Shown one piece after another: positions 3,867 through 9,008 of a stretch of DNA of 64,000 nt. The position numbers and the translations under genes are program-made. Source of the DNA: Gloeobacterales cyanobacterium ES-bin-313 (GTDB lineage: Bacteria > Cyanobacteriota > Cyanobacteriia > Gloeobacterales > Gloeobacteraceae); NCBI GenBank assembly GCA_014379585.1, contig JACMLN010000105.1:1-64000 (forward strand), read 5' to 3'. The notes under the pieces are model-generated. The model saw nothing but the letters and a program-made list of their open reading frames with translations. It ran no database searches and was not told where the DNA came from. Position 1 is the stretch's first letter; the number at the start of each line of letters is the position of its first letter.

Positions 3867-5069
3867 CTAAGGCTGGCTTGGACAAGCAGATTGTCCTGTG
3901 AAACAGTTGATGGTTGTATCGCGATTAGCTGGAATTGGTAGGTAGCGATTGTTTGGATTTCTTGGCGAACCAGCCGGACTTGTGACCGGAGTTGGGTATC
4001 CAGAGTAGTACTGGTAGAGAGCCTTTTGTACAGGCAATGAAGCATCTTCAGTGACGACAGAATAATCACCAGGGATAAGTACTGTAACCCCAGAAGTTGC
4101 TGTACCACTTGGCGTTGTAACGCTGATCAGCCCAGTCGTGCTCCCACTGGGTACAGTCGCAGTGATTTGGGTATCGGAGTTTACTGCGAAAGGGGCACTT
4201 AAGCTGTTGATCTTCACAGCCGTTGCTCCCGTGAAGTAGCTGCCGGTAATGATGATCGAAGTGCCAATCGGCGCATTGCTGGGAGAAAAACTGGTGATCG
4301 TGGGTGCTGGCAGATAGCTGCTTAGAAAGCTTTGATAGTTTGAGAGCAAAATACCGCCACCGATTGAGCCGTACCCGAAAGCACTTCCCTTCGGTGTCGA
4401 GGCAACAAAGGTATTAATGCCAAGCAATTGCGGAATACCATTTACCAAAATAAAAGTAGGTCCCCCCGAATCGCCACTACGGAGCGTGTCTTCTCCGCTC
4501 ACAGCTGGGCCACCCACATAGTTGTAGAGATTCGACGTATCACCTGGCTGGTCAAAATCGAAAGCAAAAGTTGTTGATCCAAATGAAACTGGAAGACTCG
4601 GATCTGCGGGCGTACAGATGCCTGTGTTGTTGGGATCTGGAGCGCATGGATCGTTCACAGGCGCGATGTCGATGGCATTGTAGGCAACGCTACTGTTGTT
4701 ATGGATAAAGACAATACCTGAGCCAATCGGTGCAGATTCAAAATAGATTTTATAGGTAGGGATCGAACTTGGCAGAGGACTAGCAAGGGTGATAGCGACA
4801 AGATCGTTGTCTAAATTAGGTTGACCGAAACTGATATAACCAGGAGCCACGTCAACACGGATGGCTGGTATTCCTTTGAAGCTTAGTGTGGCAGGGTTTG
4901 CCCCTGCACTACAGTGGGCAGCACTCAAGACCACTGTTGGAGAAATCGCGACTCCGGTGCAGCCACCACTGATCGCTCCGGCTCCATCGTAAATCCCTTC
5001 GCCCCATGCGGAGGAAGCACCCAGAAGGATTGTGCTACTAGCGAGATAGCCAAGCATTTGTTTGTTCAT
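3867..5069 (-). CDS. Exported trypsin-like serine protease with IPT/TIG domain
   Basis: A secreted S1-family protease, about 400 residues. The frame extends upstream to an ATG at 5162, but the ATG at 5069 starts a normal signal peptide (MNKQMLGYLASSTILLGASSAWG), so I place the start there. The catalytic triad is visible: His52 in VVLSAAHC, Asp89 in LDNDLVAITL and Ser201 in RSGDSGGP. Residues ~254-335 form an IPT/TIG immunoglobulin-like domain (PTITSFSPSNAPIGTSIIITG), usually a surface or binding module. The gene follows the TPR-CHAT gene on the same strand, so two exported proteases are co-transcribed. If the upstream ATG were used the genes would overlap by 11 bases. The substrate is unknown. 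Confidence 0.85.
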   Translation of the reverse strand: MNKQMLGYLASSTILLGASSAWGEGIYDGAGAISGGCTGVAISPTVVLSAAHCSAGANPATLSFKGIPAIRVDVAPGYISFGQPNLDNDLVAITLASPLPSSIPTYKIYFESAPIGSGIVFIHNNSSVAYNAIDIAPVNDPCAPDPNNTGICTPADPSLPVSFGSTTFAFDFDQPGDTSNLYNYVGGPAVSGEDTLRSGDSGGPTFILVNGIPQLLGINTFVASTPKGSAFGYGSIGGGILLSNYQSFLSSYLPAPTITSFSPSNAPIGTSIIITGSYFTGATAVKINSLSAPFAVNSDTQITATVPSGSTTGLISVTTPSGTATSGVTVLIPGDYSVVTEDASLPVQKALYQYYSGYPTPVTSPAGSPRNPNNRYLPIPANRDTTINCFTGQSACPSQP

Positions 5070-5151
5070 GCCATTTAGAATACTAGAAAACTTGCGTGAA
5101 GAGGTTAAGAGTAATTGAAGAGACAATTCTGGTCGCAACAAACATGTTTCC

Positions 5152-7482
5152 CTATTGACCATCGCCGATCAAAATAAACGGTGACCAGAAGAACGGATGG
5201 CGATCAATTTGCTGGAGTTTTGCCTGCCTAAGTGCTTGGGCTTTGCTCATCTTCTGCTTGAGGTTTTCGTAGAATCCCACCATCAGTTCCTTGGTGGCGT
5301 TATCTTCGACAGCCCATAGACTGGCAATCACAGAACGGGCACCCGCACGTTCGAACAAGTAGGCAAGGCTGGTAATTCCCTCCCCCTTCGATTCGGCACC
5401 AATGGCAGTCTGACAGGCACTCAGGGTGATCAGTTCAACCCCTTTAAACCCAAGTTGGGCAGCGTCGGCGATGTTCATCGCTTGGTCAGCAAAAAGCAGT
5501 GTGTTGGGCTCCATATTTAGATTCCGACAGCCATTCTCTTGAAAACAGCCATGGGTAGCGAGGTGCAAAATCGAGAATTTGGGGATAGAGGTTTTGAACT
5601 GCCGTAAGGAAGCCTGGGTGCCTGTAAAAATCAGACTGCCCGGTACAGCCTGGGTAATGAGTTCCGCTTCTCGGGCGGCTCCTGGCAGATTTCGCTCTCC
5701 TTGAGGAAAGGGGTTGCCAAGGGCAAGGATCCGCCGACTGGGATCTGGGATCTCCTTGAATGCGCGGGTAGACAAAAAAGTCAGATAGTTGACTGGATAA
5801 TCTTCGATCAAGTAGTGGTTCTTTTCGGAGTCGTAAAAAGTCTCAAAGGGCAAGTAGCGCAGCTTGTCCGTAGCCACCACGCTTACTTGTTGAGCAGAAG
5901 CAGCCTGAAACCAAGGCAGGACGGGACGGATCAATAGATCGAAGAGCCTAGCACTGTTCTCGCCGTAGTCGCCATCGAAAGGATTTTTCAGCGCGTCATA
6001 GTATTGGAGAATCAGCGCATCCAGCTCAGAGTGGTGAATCTCCTGCTTATGCACTTGGATGCTGTCCTGGGTCAAGACGAACAGAACTAAGTATTCAGGA
6101 TTGCCATTCATGCTCGATAAAACGACAGGGTGGAGGATGACCTGCCCTTTGCTCAGGGTCGCCCGTAACCTAGCCACGTCGGTGGGAGTGGTCTCGAACA
6201 GATCCGCAACTTCTGGGAAGCGGCGGGAAATGTCGTCTGCTTGCCGATTTACTTCCGTTTCTTTGGCTTGAAGTTGTTGGGTCAAGCCAACAGAAGATTT
6301 GCCATTCAACTGCTCCCGCAAAGTTTCGAGCTGCTGATTCTGGCGATTCCAATTGTCGATTGCCACTTGCGCGAGGGGATCCGATACCTTAGCTCCGATT
6401 AGACGCGAATAATCTACAAACCCAGCAGCAGTAACAAGATTCGCCCATTCGTAGGCACGTCCGACTTGATCGTTCTCGATGAGTAGTCTAACCAAAAGAT
6501 TGACGGTATCCGCTGCCGAACGCACAATCACCGAACGATCATTGCGCTGGAAACCGCTGCGCATTTGCAAACTGATCTTGAGGGACTGCTCCAGAGCTTC
6601 GATTGCCTGTTGCTTTTGACCCACCTGTGCAAGAACTACGCCAATATTGGCAAGGGCTGCTCTCTCCTCAGCGCGATGGCCGACTTCGCGGCTGAGGGCC
6701 AAAGCTTTGCGATGGTACTCTAGAGCTTCACTGGTTTTGCCTTGGTTCGCCAGCAAGACTCCCAGGTTATCGCGGACTGTGGCCTCAAGCGGTCGATAGC
6801 CAATTGCTTGTGCTAGAAGCAAAACCTCTTGGTAGTAACGGCCAGCTTGCTCAGACTGGCCGATCTCAACGTAGAGGTTGGCGAGATTGTTGAGAATCAG
6901 GACTTCTTCCTCGTGGTCGCCCACAGTTCTGCTCAGGGCAAGCGCGCGTTGGTAGGTTTCTAAGGCACGATCAGGCTGTCCGAGGTTGTCGTAGGCGAGA
7001 GCCAGATTGCTAAGGGTATTCGCCTCTGCATCCTGGAGTTGCAGTTTATGGGCCAGTTCTAATGCCTGGATGTAGTTGGTAACAGCCTCTTCGCTGTGGC
7101 CAGTTGCATCGTAGACTTGGCCAATCGTATTCAGTGTGACCACCACCGATCCGAGATTTCCACTTTGACGATCCAGGGAGAGAGCCTCGCGGTAGCTTTC
7201 TAATGCCTTATAAAATTGCCCAGTCTTCTTATAGAGATCCCCCAAACTATTAAGCACTTGTGCTTCTGACTTTCGGTCATTGGATTTACGGCTCAGATTC
7301 AGGGCACGTTGGTACATTTCGAGTGCCTGGACATCTGTTGAAGTTTCAGCTTGTTGCAGGAGTTGGGCGAACTCCTTAGAATCTGAGATATCCCCTGCCC
7401 AAGCAGTGTTGTCGCCCAAGCAGCAGATCCCAACAACAAAAAACAGACACAGAACTGGTAGCTTTCGATTCAAGAATTGCAT
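5152..7482 (-). CDS. Exported TPR-CHAT caspase-like protease
   Basis: A 776-residue protein with a signal peptide (cut near AWAG, residue ~29), about seven tetratricopeptide repeats (residues ~35-310), a helical linker and a C-terminal CHAT domain (~500-776). The CHAT catalytic dyad is present: His644 in LHLATHG and Cys690 in TLSACQT. CHAT domains are caspase-like cysteine proteases that are often kept inactive by their TPR sensor. The gene lies six bases after a small exported protein and runs directly into a trypsin-like protease gene, suggesting a periplasmic or extracellular proteolytic unit. Whether it acts in stress response, cell-surface turnover or programmed death cannot be told from sequence. 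Confidence 0.9.
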   Translation of the reverse strand: MQFLNRKLPVLCLFFVVGICCLGDNTAWAGDISDSKEFAQLLQQAETSTDVQALEMYQRALNLSRKSNDRKSEAQVLNSLGDLYKKTGQFYKALESYREALSLDRQSGNLGSVVVTLNTIGQVYDATGHSEEAVTNYIQALELAHKLQLQDAEANTLSNLALAYDNLGQPDRALETYQRALALSRTVGDHEEEVLILNNLANLYVEIGQSEQAGRYYQEVLLLAQAIGYRPLEATVRDNLGVLLANQGKTSEALEYHRKALALSREVGHRAEERAALANIGVVLAQVGQKQQAIEALEQSLKISLQMRSGFQRNDRSVIVRSAADTVNLLVRLLIENDQVGRAYEWANLVTAAGFVDYSRLIGAKVSDPLAQVAIDNWNRQNQQLETLREQLNGKSSVGLTQQLQAKETEVNRQADDISRRFPEVADLFETTPTDVARLRATLSKGQVILHPVVLSSMNGNPEYLVLFVLTQDSIQVHKQEIHHSELDALILQYYDALKNPFDGDYGENSARLFDLLIRPVLPWFQAASAQQVSVVATDKLRYLPFETFYDSEKNHYLIEDYPVNYLTFLSTRAFKEIPDPSRRILALGNPFPQGERNLPGAAREAELITQAVPGSLIFTGTQASLRQFKTSIPKFSILHLATHGCFQENGCRNLNMEPNTLLFADQAMNIADAAQLGFKGVELITLSACQTAIGAESKGEGITSLAYLFERAGARSVIASLWAVEDNATKELMVGFYENLKQKMSKAQALRQAKLQQIDRHPFFWSPFILIGDGQ

Positions 7483-7488
7483 AGAATC

Positions 7489-8049
7489 TTATGGCGCTGT
7501 TGGTACGGCGCGCACATTCATTATCTGATTGGTGGTAAAGGAGATCTCATCAATCAGGTAAGGACTCGTCTGCGCTACCGCTTTGACTCCACGAAACTCA
7601 GAGGGCTTGAGCACAGTGGTCAAGTTCACCTCTGCAAGACCCTTCGATTGATCTTTGAACCTAAAACCATTGCGGGGAACATTTTGCCAAACCCTTGCGC
7701 CAGTCGTGTTTGACAATAAAGCACCACCGCGAATAGCCAAAGTGCTTGAGCCTTGCACAACTGGTTTATCAGACCTGAACTTGATCTTACTGACGGTTTC
7801 TAAGGGCACAACTGCGGATGTTCCACCAAATTCCACAGACATGTTCGTTGCAGTGAGCGACTTCACCCGACCGGTGATCGAGCTACCATCTTTAAGCTGG
7901 ATATCCGCTAAGGGAGGGATAGATACAAGGAGCCAAGCATCTTGGGGCTGGGCGTAGGCGACCTGACCTGGGAGAATCGCTTTCTCCAGCGTAAACACAG
8001 TTCCCAAAACGACGACGCTAGCAATGACGAATAGCCCTAAACGTTCCAT
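7489..8049 (-). CDS. Small exported protein of unknown function, first gene of the CHAT operon
   Basis: A 186-residue protein with an N-terminal signal peptide (cut near AYAQ, residue ~34). The following stretch (IQLKDGSSITGRVKSLTATN, then VPLETVSKIKF) has the alternating pattern of a small beta-barrel, resembling the LSm/SH3-like fold seen in other exported bacterial proteins, and the C-terminal half also looks beta-rich. I do not know a function. The ATG at 8049 starts the signal peptide and the stop is six bases before the TPR-CHAT ATG, so the two are surely one operon. It may be a binding partner, inhibitor or substrate of the protease. Confidence 0.75.
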   Translation of the reverse strand: MERLGLFVIASVVVLGTVFTLEKAILPGQVAYAQPQDAWLLVSIPPLADIQLKDGSSITGRVKSLTATNMSVEFGGTSAVVPLETVSKIKFRSDKPVVQGSSTLAIRGGALLSNTTGARVWQNVPRNGFRFKDQSKGLAEVNLTTVLKPSEFRGVKAVAQTSPYLIDEISFTTNQIMNVRAVPTAP

Positions 8050-8141
8050 TTGTATTTAATCTCTTAGCTTGAAAACAGAGTTTCCTTATCATGGCATAAG
8101 ATAGAGTCTTAATTCCTAGCCTTTCAGGTTTTGAGGTCGAG

Positions 8142-9008
8142 GTGTCAGAGACTCCCAATCCAACCCCGAAGACGAAACTTCTCGCAGAATTTATTGGTCA
8201 GGCAAGTGTATTTGGCATTTTTCTCTACTTCACGGGCTGGATCTATCGTTGGTCTTATTTTGGCTACTATCAAATTGATATCAACACCTTGGCCTTGTCT
8301 CAGCAATCATTTTTGATTGTTCCACTTCAGGTCTTTTTGGGCAGCTTCGGGGCTACATCGAGAGCGTTGTTCTTGATGGTAACCCTCACGTTTGTAATTT
8401 CTGCTATTTCTGTTTTTGTACAAGCCACCCGTGAAACCTTAGGCACCGCATTTTTTGAGCTAGAAACAATCAGATACGATCCTCTAAAGATCAAGCCTGT
8501 TGAAATCCCTGCCATTGTCAAACGGTTTATGGTGAATACGTTGCTTCAGCCCTTCGTTGTTGACATCGTTATCGTTTTAATCGTTCTATCCAGTCTCTTC
8601 TGGTTAGCCAGCTTTCAAGGTTATGAAGATGCCCGACGGGATGCTTTCAACGACACCTCTACGCTACCGATTGTTGCCTATATCAGCCATTCCGATGAAT
8701 TCCCTCTAGGTCGCAACCTCGCTCAACCCCTATTTAATTCCCCACTTAAAAGTTTCCGGGGGATCGGTGATCTTAGCTTGTTACGGCAACTGCAGGGCAG
8801 AGATATTACGGACAAGACGATTCCAAACCAACCTGTCTGGCGGATGTTGCTTGGTGTTGAAGAATGGATCTACCTAGTGCCTGCTATTCCGGGTGGAATT
8901 TCCCAGAATCAAAATCTTCATCCACCTGTGGTCGCGATGCGAACCAGTAATAACAGTAGCGATTTAATGCTGTTAAGTCCAGCTAAGTCTGCCAATCAAA
9001 ATCCCTGA
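8142..9008 (+). CDS. Integral membrane protein, unknown function
   Basis: A 288-residue protein with three clear hydrophobic segments: about residues 18-40 (FGIFLYFTGWIYRW), 75-95 (LFLMVTLTFVISAISVF) and 138-158 (IVIVLIVLSSLFWLASF). A ~130-residue soluble C-terminal part without recognisable motifs follows. The start is a GTG with GAGG five bases upstream. It is divergent from the CHAT operon with ~90 bp between them, so the two may share control. No function can be proposed. Past the stop, 9009-9224 holds no gene. Confidence 0.7.
   Translation: MSETPNPTPKTKLLAEFIGQASVFGIFLYFTGWIYRWSYFGYYQIDINTLALSQQSFLIVPLQVFLGSFGATSRALFLMVTLTFVISAISVFVQATRETLGTAFFELETIRYDPLKIKPVEIPAIVKRFMVNTLLQPFVVDIVIVLIVLSSLFWLASFQGYEDARRDAFNDTSTLPIVAYISHSDEFPLGRNLAQPLFNSPLKSFRGIGDLSLLRQLQGRDITDKTIPNQPVWRMLLGVEEWIYLVPAIPGGISQNQNLHPPVVAMRTSNNSSDLMLLSPAKSANQNP

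Follow-up and report, generated by a model that had tools for sequence, protein, structure and literature searches.

The window is the whole 64,000-nucleotide stretch of contig JACMLN010000105.1 of Gloeobacterales cyanobacterium ES-bin-313 that was analysed; the genome is 4.26 Mb in size and carries ten CHAT genes above the family cut-off as well as five trypsin-family genes. On the minus strand, three open reading frames (ORFs) were recovered as given in the initial annotation (3867-5162, 5152-7482, and 7489-8049), including the six-base gap between the small gene and the CHAT gene (7483-7488) and the spacing of the CHAT and trypsin-like genes, which is either an 11-base overlap (first ATG) or an 82-base gap (second ATG, 5069). 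The features of the region, with the evidence used for each, are the following:

3867-5162, minus strand: trypsin-like ORF in its upstream-ATG version (ORF listing)
3867-5069, minus strand: S1 protease of the trypsin type, with a TIG domain and a tail specific to this genome; translation probably starts at 5069; a neighbour outside the conserved module
3867-4088, minus strand: 73-aa C-terminal tail of the trypsin protein, common to large exported proteins of the same genome
5152-7482, minus strand: TPR-CHAT protease, predicted to be exported, 776 aa (ORF, Pfam, hydrophobicity of the N-terminus, CHAT tree)
7396-7482, minus strand: signal-peptide-like N-terminus of the TPR-CHAT protein, likely cleavage after AWA, residue 29 (hydrophobicity)
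6553-7332, minus strand: TPR array of the TPR-CHAT protein, residues about 51-310 (Pfam)
5161-5952, minus strand: CHAT (clan CD) protease domain (Pfam)
5551-5553, minus strand: catalytic His644 (alignment of homologues)
5545-5547, minus strand: Cys646, invariant within the module CHAT subfamily (alignment)
5527-5529, minus strand: Cys652, second invariant cysteine of the HGCF..xxC motif (alignment)
5413-5415, minus strand: catalytic Cys690 (alignment of homologues)
7489-8049, minus strand: small protein, predicted to be exported, 186 aa, conserved partner without Pfam family (ORF and homologue searches)
7951-8049, minus strand: signal-peptide-like N-terminus of the small protein, likely cleavage after AYA, residue 33 (hydrophobicity and A-x-A motif)
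7777-7935, minus strand: residues 39-91 of the small protein, a small beta-barrel of Sm/Hfq-like (SH3-type) appearance (predicted-structure and profile comparison)
8050-8141, no strand: intergenic region of 92 bases separating the divergently transcribed small and TM genes, presumably with a bidirectional promoter
8142-9008, plus strand: membrane protein (TM) of 288 aa, starting at a GTG (three helices predicted, without Pfam family)
within 8142-9008, plus strand: layout of TM, with a basic cytoplasmic loop and a C-terminal domain of ~120 aa on the predicted periplasmic side

Conserved gene neighbourhood

In other cyanobacteria, homologues of the small protein are flanked by a same-strand TPR-CHAT gene and by a divergent homologue of the window ORF at 8142-9008(+). 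The initial annotation had described a unit of the small, CHAT, and trypsin-like genes; the association of the first two stood, the trypsin-like gene dropped out as a member, and the TM gene had been missed. The locus set was obtained by scanning 84,980 species genomes for the TM family, which yielded 102 relatives, and the best 80 loci, every one of them cyanobacterial, were kept. Within these best 80 of 102 loci, the TM gene occurs in 80 by construction (TM being the bait), while the counts of the small gene (74 loci) and of TPR-CHAT-type genes (59 loci) are independent of the bait; the next commonest gene cluster was counted 10 times. The small exported beta protein noted initially was supported as a true genomic partner of the CHAT protein. 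Of the 55 loci that extend for 5.5 kb or more beyond the TM gene in the direction of the small gene, 49 encode a clan-CD protease, and in six none was found. Based on the CHAT density of the window genome itself, about 0.02 CHAT genes are expected per 8 kb, and the recurrence of the CHAT-small-TM neighbourhood, found in about 27 genera, is far above chance. At the level of whole genomes (386 sampled), 11 of the 13 that carry the CHAT subfamily also carry the TM gene, which was counted in 18 genomes for this comparison (hypergeometric p 4e-15; counts and p unadjusted for kinship), and two have the subfamily without TM. The window contains the three adjacent genes, the GW.YRW.YF motif in TM, and the HGCF..xxC motif in the CHAT protein, the latter being replaced by a swapped clan-CD protease in some members. 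The region 5152-9008 is thus almost certainly a member of a real, conserved cyanobacterial three-gene module, a description of which was not found in the open-access literature on exported or periplasmic CHAT proteins.

The arrangement of the genes varies. Across the best 80 of 102 loci, the small and TM genes are divergent in 74 and co-directional in one, and the protease lies on the far side of the TM gene in six; the gap between small gene and protease gene reaches up to 4 kb in some loci. Because of this variable order and these gaps, co-transcription is not universal. On the Calothrix PCC 7716 plasmid Cal7716_p2 (L229, 2860-8846), the TM and small genes are located near two integrase-family genes; no recognisable CHAT gene was found directly beside them, the 667-aa neighbour not being a CHAT protein. 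At two further loci, a 523-aa ORF directly behind the small gene takes the usual place of the protease (L117:5487-7058(-) and L122:5518-7089(-)); it is a metallophosphoesterase by Pfam in L117, and the TM proteins of both loci form one clade.

The distribution of the module is patchy, with TM in 23 and the small gene in 15 of the 386 genomes. Neither the TM gene nor the small gene was found in the eight other genomes of the order, i.e., the module was either gained in the window genome or lost in its relatives. In the trees, the window proteins have long branches; the CHAT protein branches off close to the base of its clade, and the placement of TM in its tree is weak. The G+C content is 0.51 for the CHAT gene, 0.50 for the small gene, and 0.507 for the window, and lower (0.45) for the TM gene.

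Proteins of the module

The CHAT domain (PF12770) covers residues 511-774 (Pfam; 1.1e-61, 209 bits against a cut-off of 24) and is preceded by the TPR array (TPR_12, 2e-50). His644 and Cys690 had been read as the catalytic dyad in the initial annotation, and both are invariant in nine aligned homologues; with CHAT domain, TPR array, and His/Cys dyad present, the protein is predicted to be a protease. Its proposed location outside the cytoplasm was supported by the signal-peptide-like N-terminus. Export calls were based on a hydrophobicity scale, and a strongly hydrophobic N-terminus was detected in 40 of the 47 module CHATs; of the seven without one, most are fragmentary or have lost the start of the ORF. 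In the CHAT tree, 46 of the 47 module CHATs, the window protein, and one orphan (G015) form a clade with a long stem (SH-aLRT 99). Common to the module CHATs is the motif HLATHGCF..xxC beside the catalytic His, which was not found in the compared CHATs outside the module, with the exception of the orphan. Apart from Cys646, Cys652, and Cys690, the mature window CHAT protein contains no cysteine, from which we infer a putative Cys646-Cys652 disulfide in an oxidising compartment.

The TPR arrays of module CHATs range from few to over 30 units (approximate numbers from a simple-pattern count), and adjacent units are 80-100% identical in many loci. The proteins reach 1829 aa (L132:1274-6763(-) and L174:1540-7029(-)), and adjacent repeats in them share up to about 90% identity, which suggests rapid expansion and homogenisation of these arrays. 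The closest relative of the window CHAT protein (49% identity) is the orphan (L063:5755-7782(-)), which has no small or TM gene nearby. At the module locus of Arthrospira PCC 9108 (L178:1803-2612(-)), the catalytic His of the CHAT protein is lost (HLANPVCLN versus HLATHGCFQ) and the Cys is kept, and this sequence is likely that of a dead protease retained at the locus.

The protease slot is not always occupied by this CHAT subfamily. In Xenococcus, Crocosphaera, Snowella, and Microcystis, the small gene is followed by a Peptidase_C14 gene (E 5e-24 to 8e-40) with intact catalytic motifs YYAGHG and DACR; such genes lie, for instance, at L190:5865-7394(-), L191:4079-5671(-), L193:6032-7372(-), and L103:9756-11381(+). 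These swapped caspases have a signal-peptide-like N-terminus and are fused to GUN4, or to a cyclophilin domain instead in Microcystis LSC13-02; in L176, the gene is split into two ORFs. The TM proteins of the C14 loci form one clade (support 100) within the tree of CHAT-associated TM proteins, and the exchange was therefore read as a replacement of CHAT by C14. Additionally, a CHAT protein of another, unrelated subfamily occupies the slot in Scytonema RU_4_4 (L158), and one is encoded beside the module in G144 (L112); both belong to one clade of other CHATs in the tree. CHAT and C14 proteins are both caspase-fold enzymes, so that the small and TM proteins appear to need that kind of protease activity, which argues that their partner is a caspase-fold protease and not one particular protein.

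Of 75 small-protein homologues, 74 have a strongly hydrophobic N-terminus. No Pfam family was found with either the small protein of the window or its family as query; a gasdermin was not found in the small family either. The predicted structure has a pLDDT over 90 in its folded parts. In Foldseek searches, the barrel matched Hfq with a probability of 1.0 and an E-value of 9e-3 at best (about 1e-2 over 43-57 columns), the rmsd being 0.7-1.1 A in the tightest matches, and profile comparison gave weak matches to SH3-type/Sm-like chains (E 0.05-0.06). The putative Sm-like barrel aligns with Hfq over about 43-57 columns; the small protein differs from Sm/Hfq proteins in its predicted export, in lacking a significant sequence match, and in its additional C-terminal half, which is modelled as alpha/beta and beta-rich.

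Three helices were predicted in 62 of the 80 TM proteins. For the window TM, the hydrophobicity scan gave helices two and three only, helix one being evident from the alignment and from the AF2 model. The mean net charge is +6.6 for the loop between helices two and three and -0.6 for that between helices one and two; with a basic second and a neutral first loop, the C-terminal domain of ~120 residues is therefore placed in the periplasm according to the positive-inside rule. The AF2 model consists of long helices and a beta-rich C-terminal domain, for which no match to PDB folds was found; searches of TM against PDB sequences, Pfam families, and phage records gave no match either. Decayed TM copies with internal stops exist among the 386 sampled genomes. 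If the signal sequences are read correctly, all three module proteins would act at or outside the inner membrane, and an extracytoplasmic action of the module is considered very probable.

The trypsin-like neighbour

The trypsin-like protein is an S1-family member (PF00089, 1.2e-8, 35.5 bits against a cut-off of 20.6), and both the intact triad (H83/D120/S232 when counting from the first ATG) and the TIG domain (Pfam, 1.4e-8) noted earlier were confirmed. Signal peptides had been assigned to all three minus-strand proteins; this holds strongly for the small and CHAT proteins, and for the trypsin-like protein a weak h-region was seen from the second ATG only. As the protein looks exported only from ATG 5069, the 82-base gap is likelier than the overlap. 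Co-occurrence did not bear out the proposed CHAT-trypsin pair: no gene for a GDSGG-type serine protease was found in the best 80 of 102 module loci, and the peptidase domain has weak relatives in only three other genomes of 292 (33-34% identity for two long matches). On both grounds, the trypsin-like protein was ruled out as part of the module. A comparison with solved structures gave no sequence match.

The trypsin-like protein shares its TIG domain and 73-residue tail with two large exported proteins encoded in its own genome, this part being 77% identical at the protein level to that of one of them. The tail (..YYSGYPTPVTSPAGSPRNPNNRY..CFTGQSACP) follows TIG domains in otherwise different exported proteins and was located at four places with 67-86% identity (window 3867-4088(-); L073:1957-5415(+); L074:849-5207(+) and 5968-6630(+)). 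It was not found in the 19 relatives searched, and may represent a surface or sorting module that is peculiar to this genome and contains a pair of cysteines. The trypsin/TIG gene is a lineage-specific neighbour outside the conserved set, which may share the transcript of the module; its product resembles a modular surface protein encoded behind the operon and may have a local add-on role.

Possible function and relation to known systems

The module looks like an undescribed envelope protease switch. The best overall explanation, to which we assign an even chance, is an extracytoplasmic three-gene module acting as a regulated-proteolysis switch at the inner membrane; regulated proteolysis as the mechanism is given slightly less than that. 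A periplasmic ligand or partner would be bound by the TPR array of the CHAT zymogen, upon which the protease would be released and would cut the outer domain of TM and/or the small protein, which would otherwise tether or inhibit it. The sequences show the association of the genes, the CHAT subfamily clade, the exchange of the protease with its catalytic residues kept, and signals of export and topology; we infer cleavage and the biological role, and likewise zymogen control, the identity of the substrates, and the signal. The variable gene order, the loci without the protease, the lost His in Arthrospira PCC 9108, and the genomes with the CHAT subfamily but no TM speak against the model. The model borrows by analogy the logic of Craspase, not membership in that system.

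Several observations would also be in line with a conflict or cell-death module, in which phage attachment, a toxin, or contact with non-self triggers the periplasmic caspase-fold protease and TM is the killing effector thereby activated, comparable to protease-activated gasdermins but from the outside: the patchy distribution, the absence from the eight other genomes of the order, the decayed TM copies, the plasmid copy beside integrases, the exchangeable proteases, and the TPR arrays of very different length with near-identical neighbouring units. We regard this as unlikely, since small and TM have no PADLOC match, TM resembles no pore-former in Pfam or among PDB folds and has no match in phage records, and the best 80 of 102 loci have no constant association with defence genes. 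A housekeeping function in the envelope, with the protease processing exported or cell-wall proteins, the small protein serving as chaperone, and TM as membrane anchor, appears improbable; the proteins are exported, membrane-linked, and found in filamentous and colony-forming genera with complex envelopes, yet patchy presence, frequent loss, and replacement of the protease are unlike a core processing enzyme.

The earlier reading, in which CHAT and trypsin would work at the surface as a zymogen cascade or protease-inhibitor unit, could draw on their shared strand, their proximity, and the probable export of both. It is now very improbable, with a trypsin-type gene in none of the best 80 of 102 loci, a peptidase domain of such narrow distribution, and a small protein that accompanies TM and CHAT instead of trypsin; a cascade including trypsin is accordingly unlikely as the conserved function. 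Compared with the regulated-proteolysis switch, a wider and tentative reading, doubtful at present, is extracytoplasmic caspase-fold surveillance, in which various clan-CD proteases plug into a pair of Sm-barrel protein and membrane sensor/effector, and surface events lead to a signal or to cell death. The proteases would then be, just as tentatively, CHATs of two subfamilies, or orthocaspases with a GUN4 or cyclophilin fusion.

Among known systems, Csx29 of Craspase (type III-E CRISPR) has a TPR array followed by a CHAT domain with a His/Cys dyad, is switched by a partner, and cuts the locus-encoded substrate Csx30 (PMC9729208, PMC10028731, PMC11106740). The window protein is alike in the order of TPR array and CHAT domain and in the dyad. 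Csx29 is cytoplasmic and RNA-guided via Cas7-11, whereas the window protein has a signal peptide, and a Sm-barrel protein and a membrane protein as partners. An identity with Csx29 was ruled out by the Csx29 model, which scored 20.1 bits where the cut-off is 300, and by the lack of Cas7-11/Csx30 neighbours; no Cas gene was found among the conserved neighbours in the best 80 of 102 loci, which are small and TM only. HetF is a cyanobacterial, membrane-associated CHAT protein with TPRs, and a putative protease with an essential active site. Its CHAT domain is N-terminal (residues 1-555) and accompanied by a single TM segment plus a TPR domain; its role, together with FtsI, lies in division and heterocyst differentiation (PMC8406250). 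HetF was excluded by the order of signal peptide, TPR, and CHAT in the window protein and by the different neighbourhood. GUN4 is a known accessory domain of orthocaspases (PMC8283722), and a search of two orthocaspase surveys (PMC8283722 and PMC7475262) for signal peptides found no mention of them; orthocaspases (Peptidase_C14) with GUN4 are the alternative occupant of the protease slot, the window itself having CHAT. A protease-activated gasdermin system was ruled out by the absence of an adjacent gasdermin and of a Pfam family or PDB match for TM. The same applies to known PADLOC anti-phage systems, of which only TPR-type and weak models match the CHAT protein and none match the small, TM, or trypsin-like proteins.

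In bacteria, relatives of caspases are usually considered to be enzymes of the cytoplasm or anchored in the membrane, with unknown triggers. The module described here is a conserved two-partner set that probably holds a caspase-fold protease in the periplasm, with CHAT or C14 in one slot. It names candidate substrates and regulators for the caspase homologues of cyanobacteria, including bloom formers (Microcystis) and diazotrophs (Trichodesmium, Nostoc), and through it the role of these homologues becomes directly testable.
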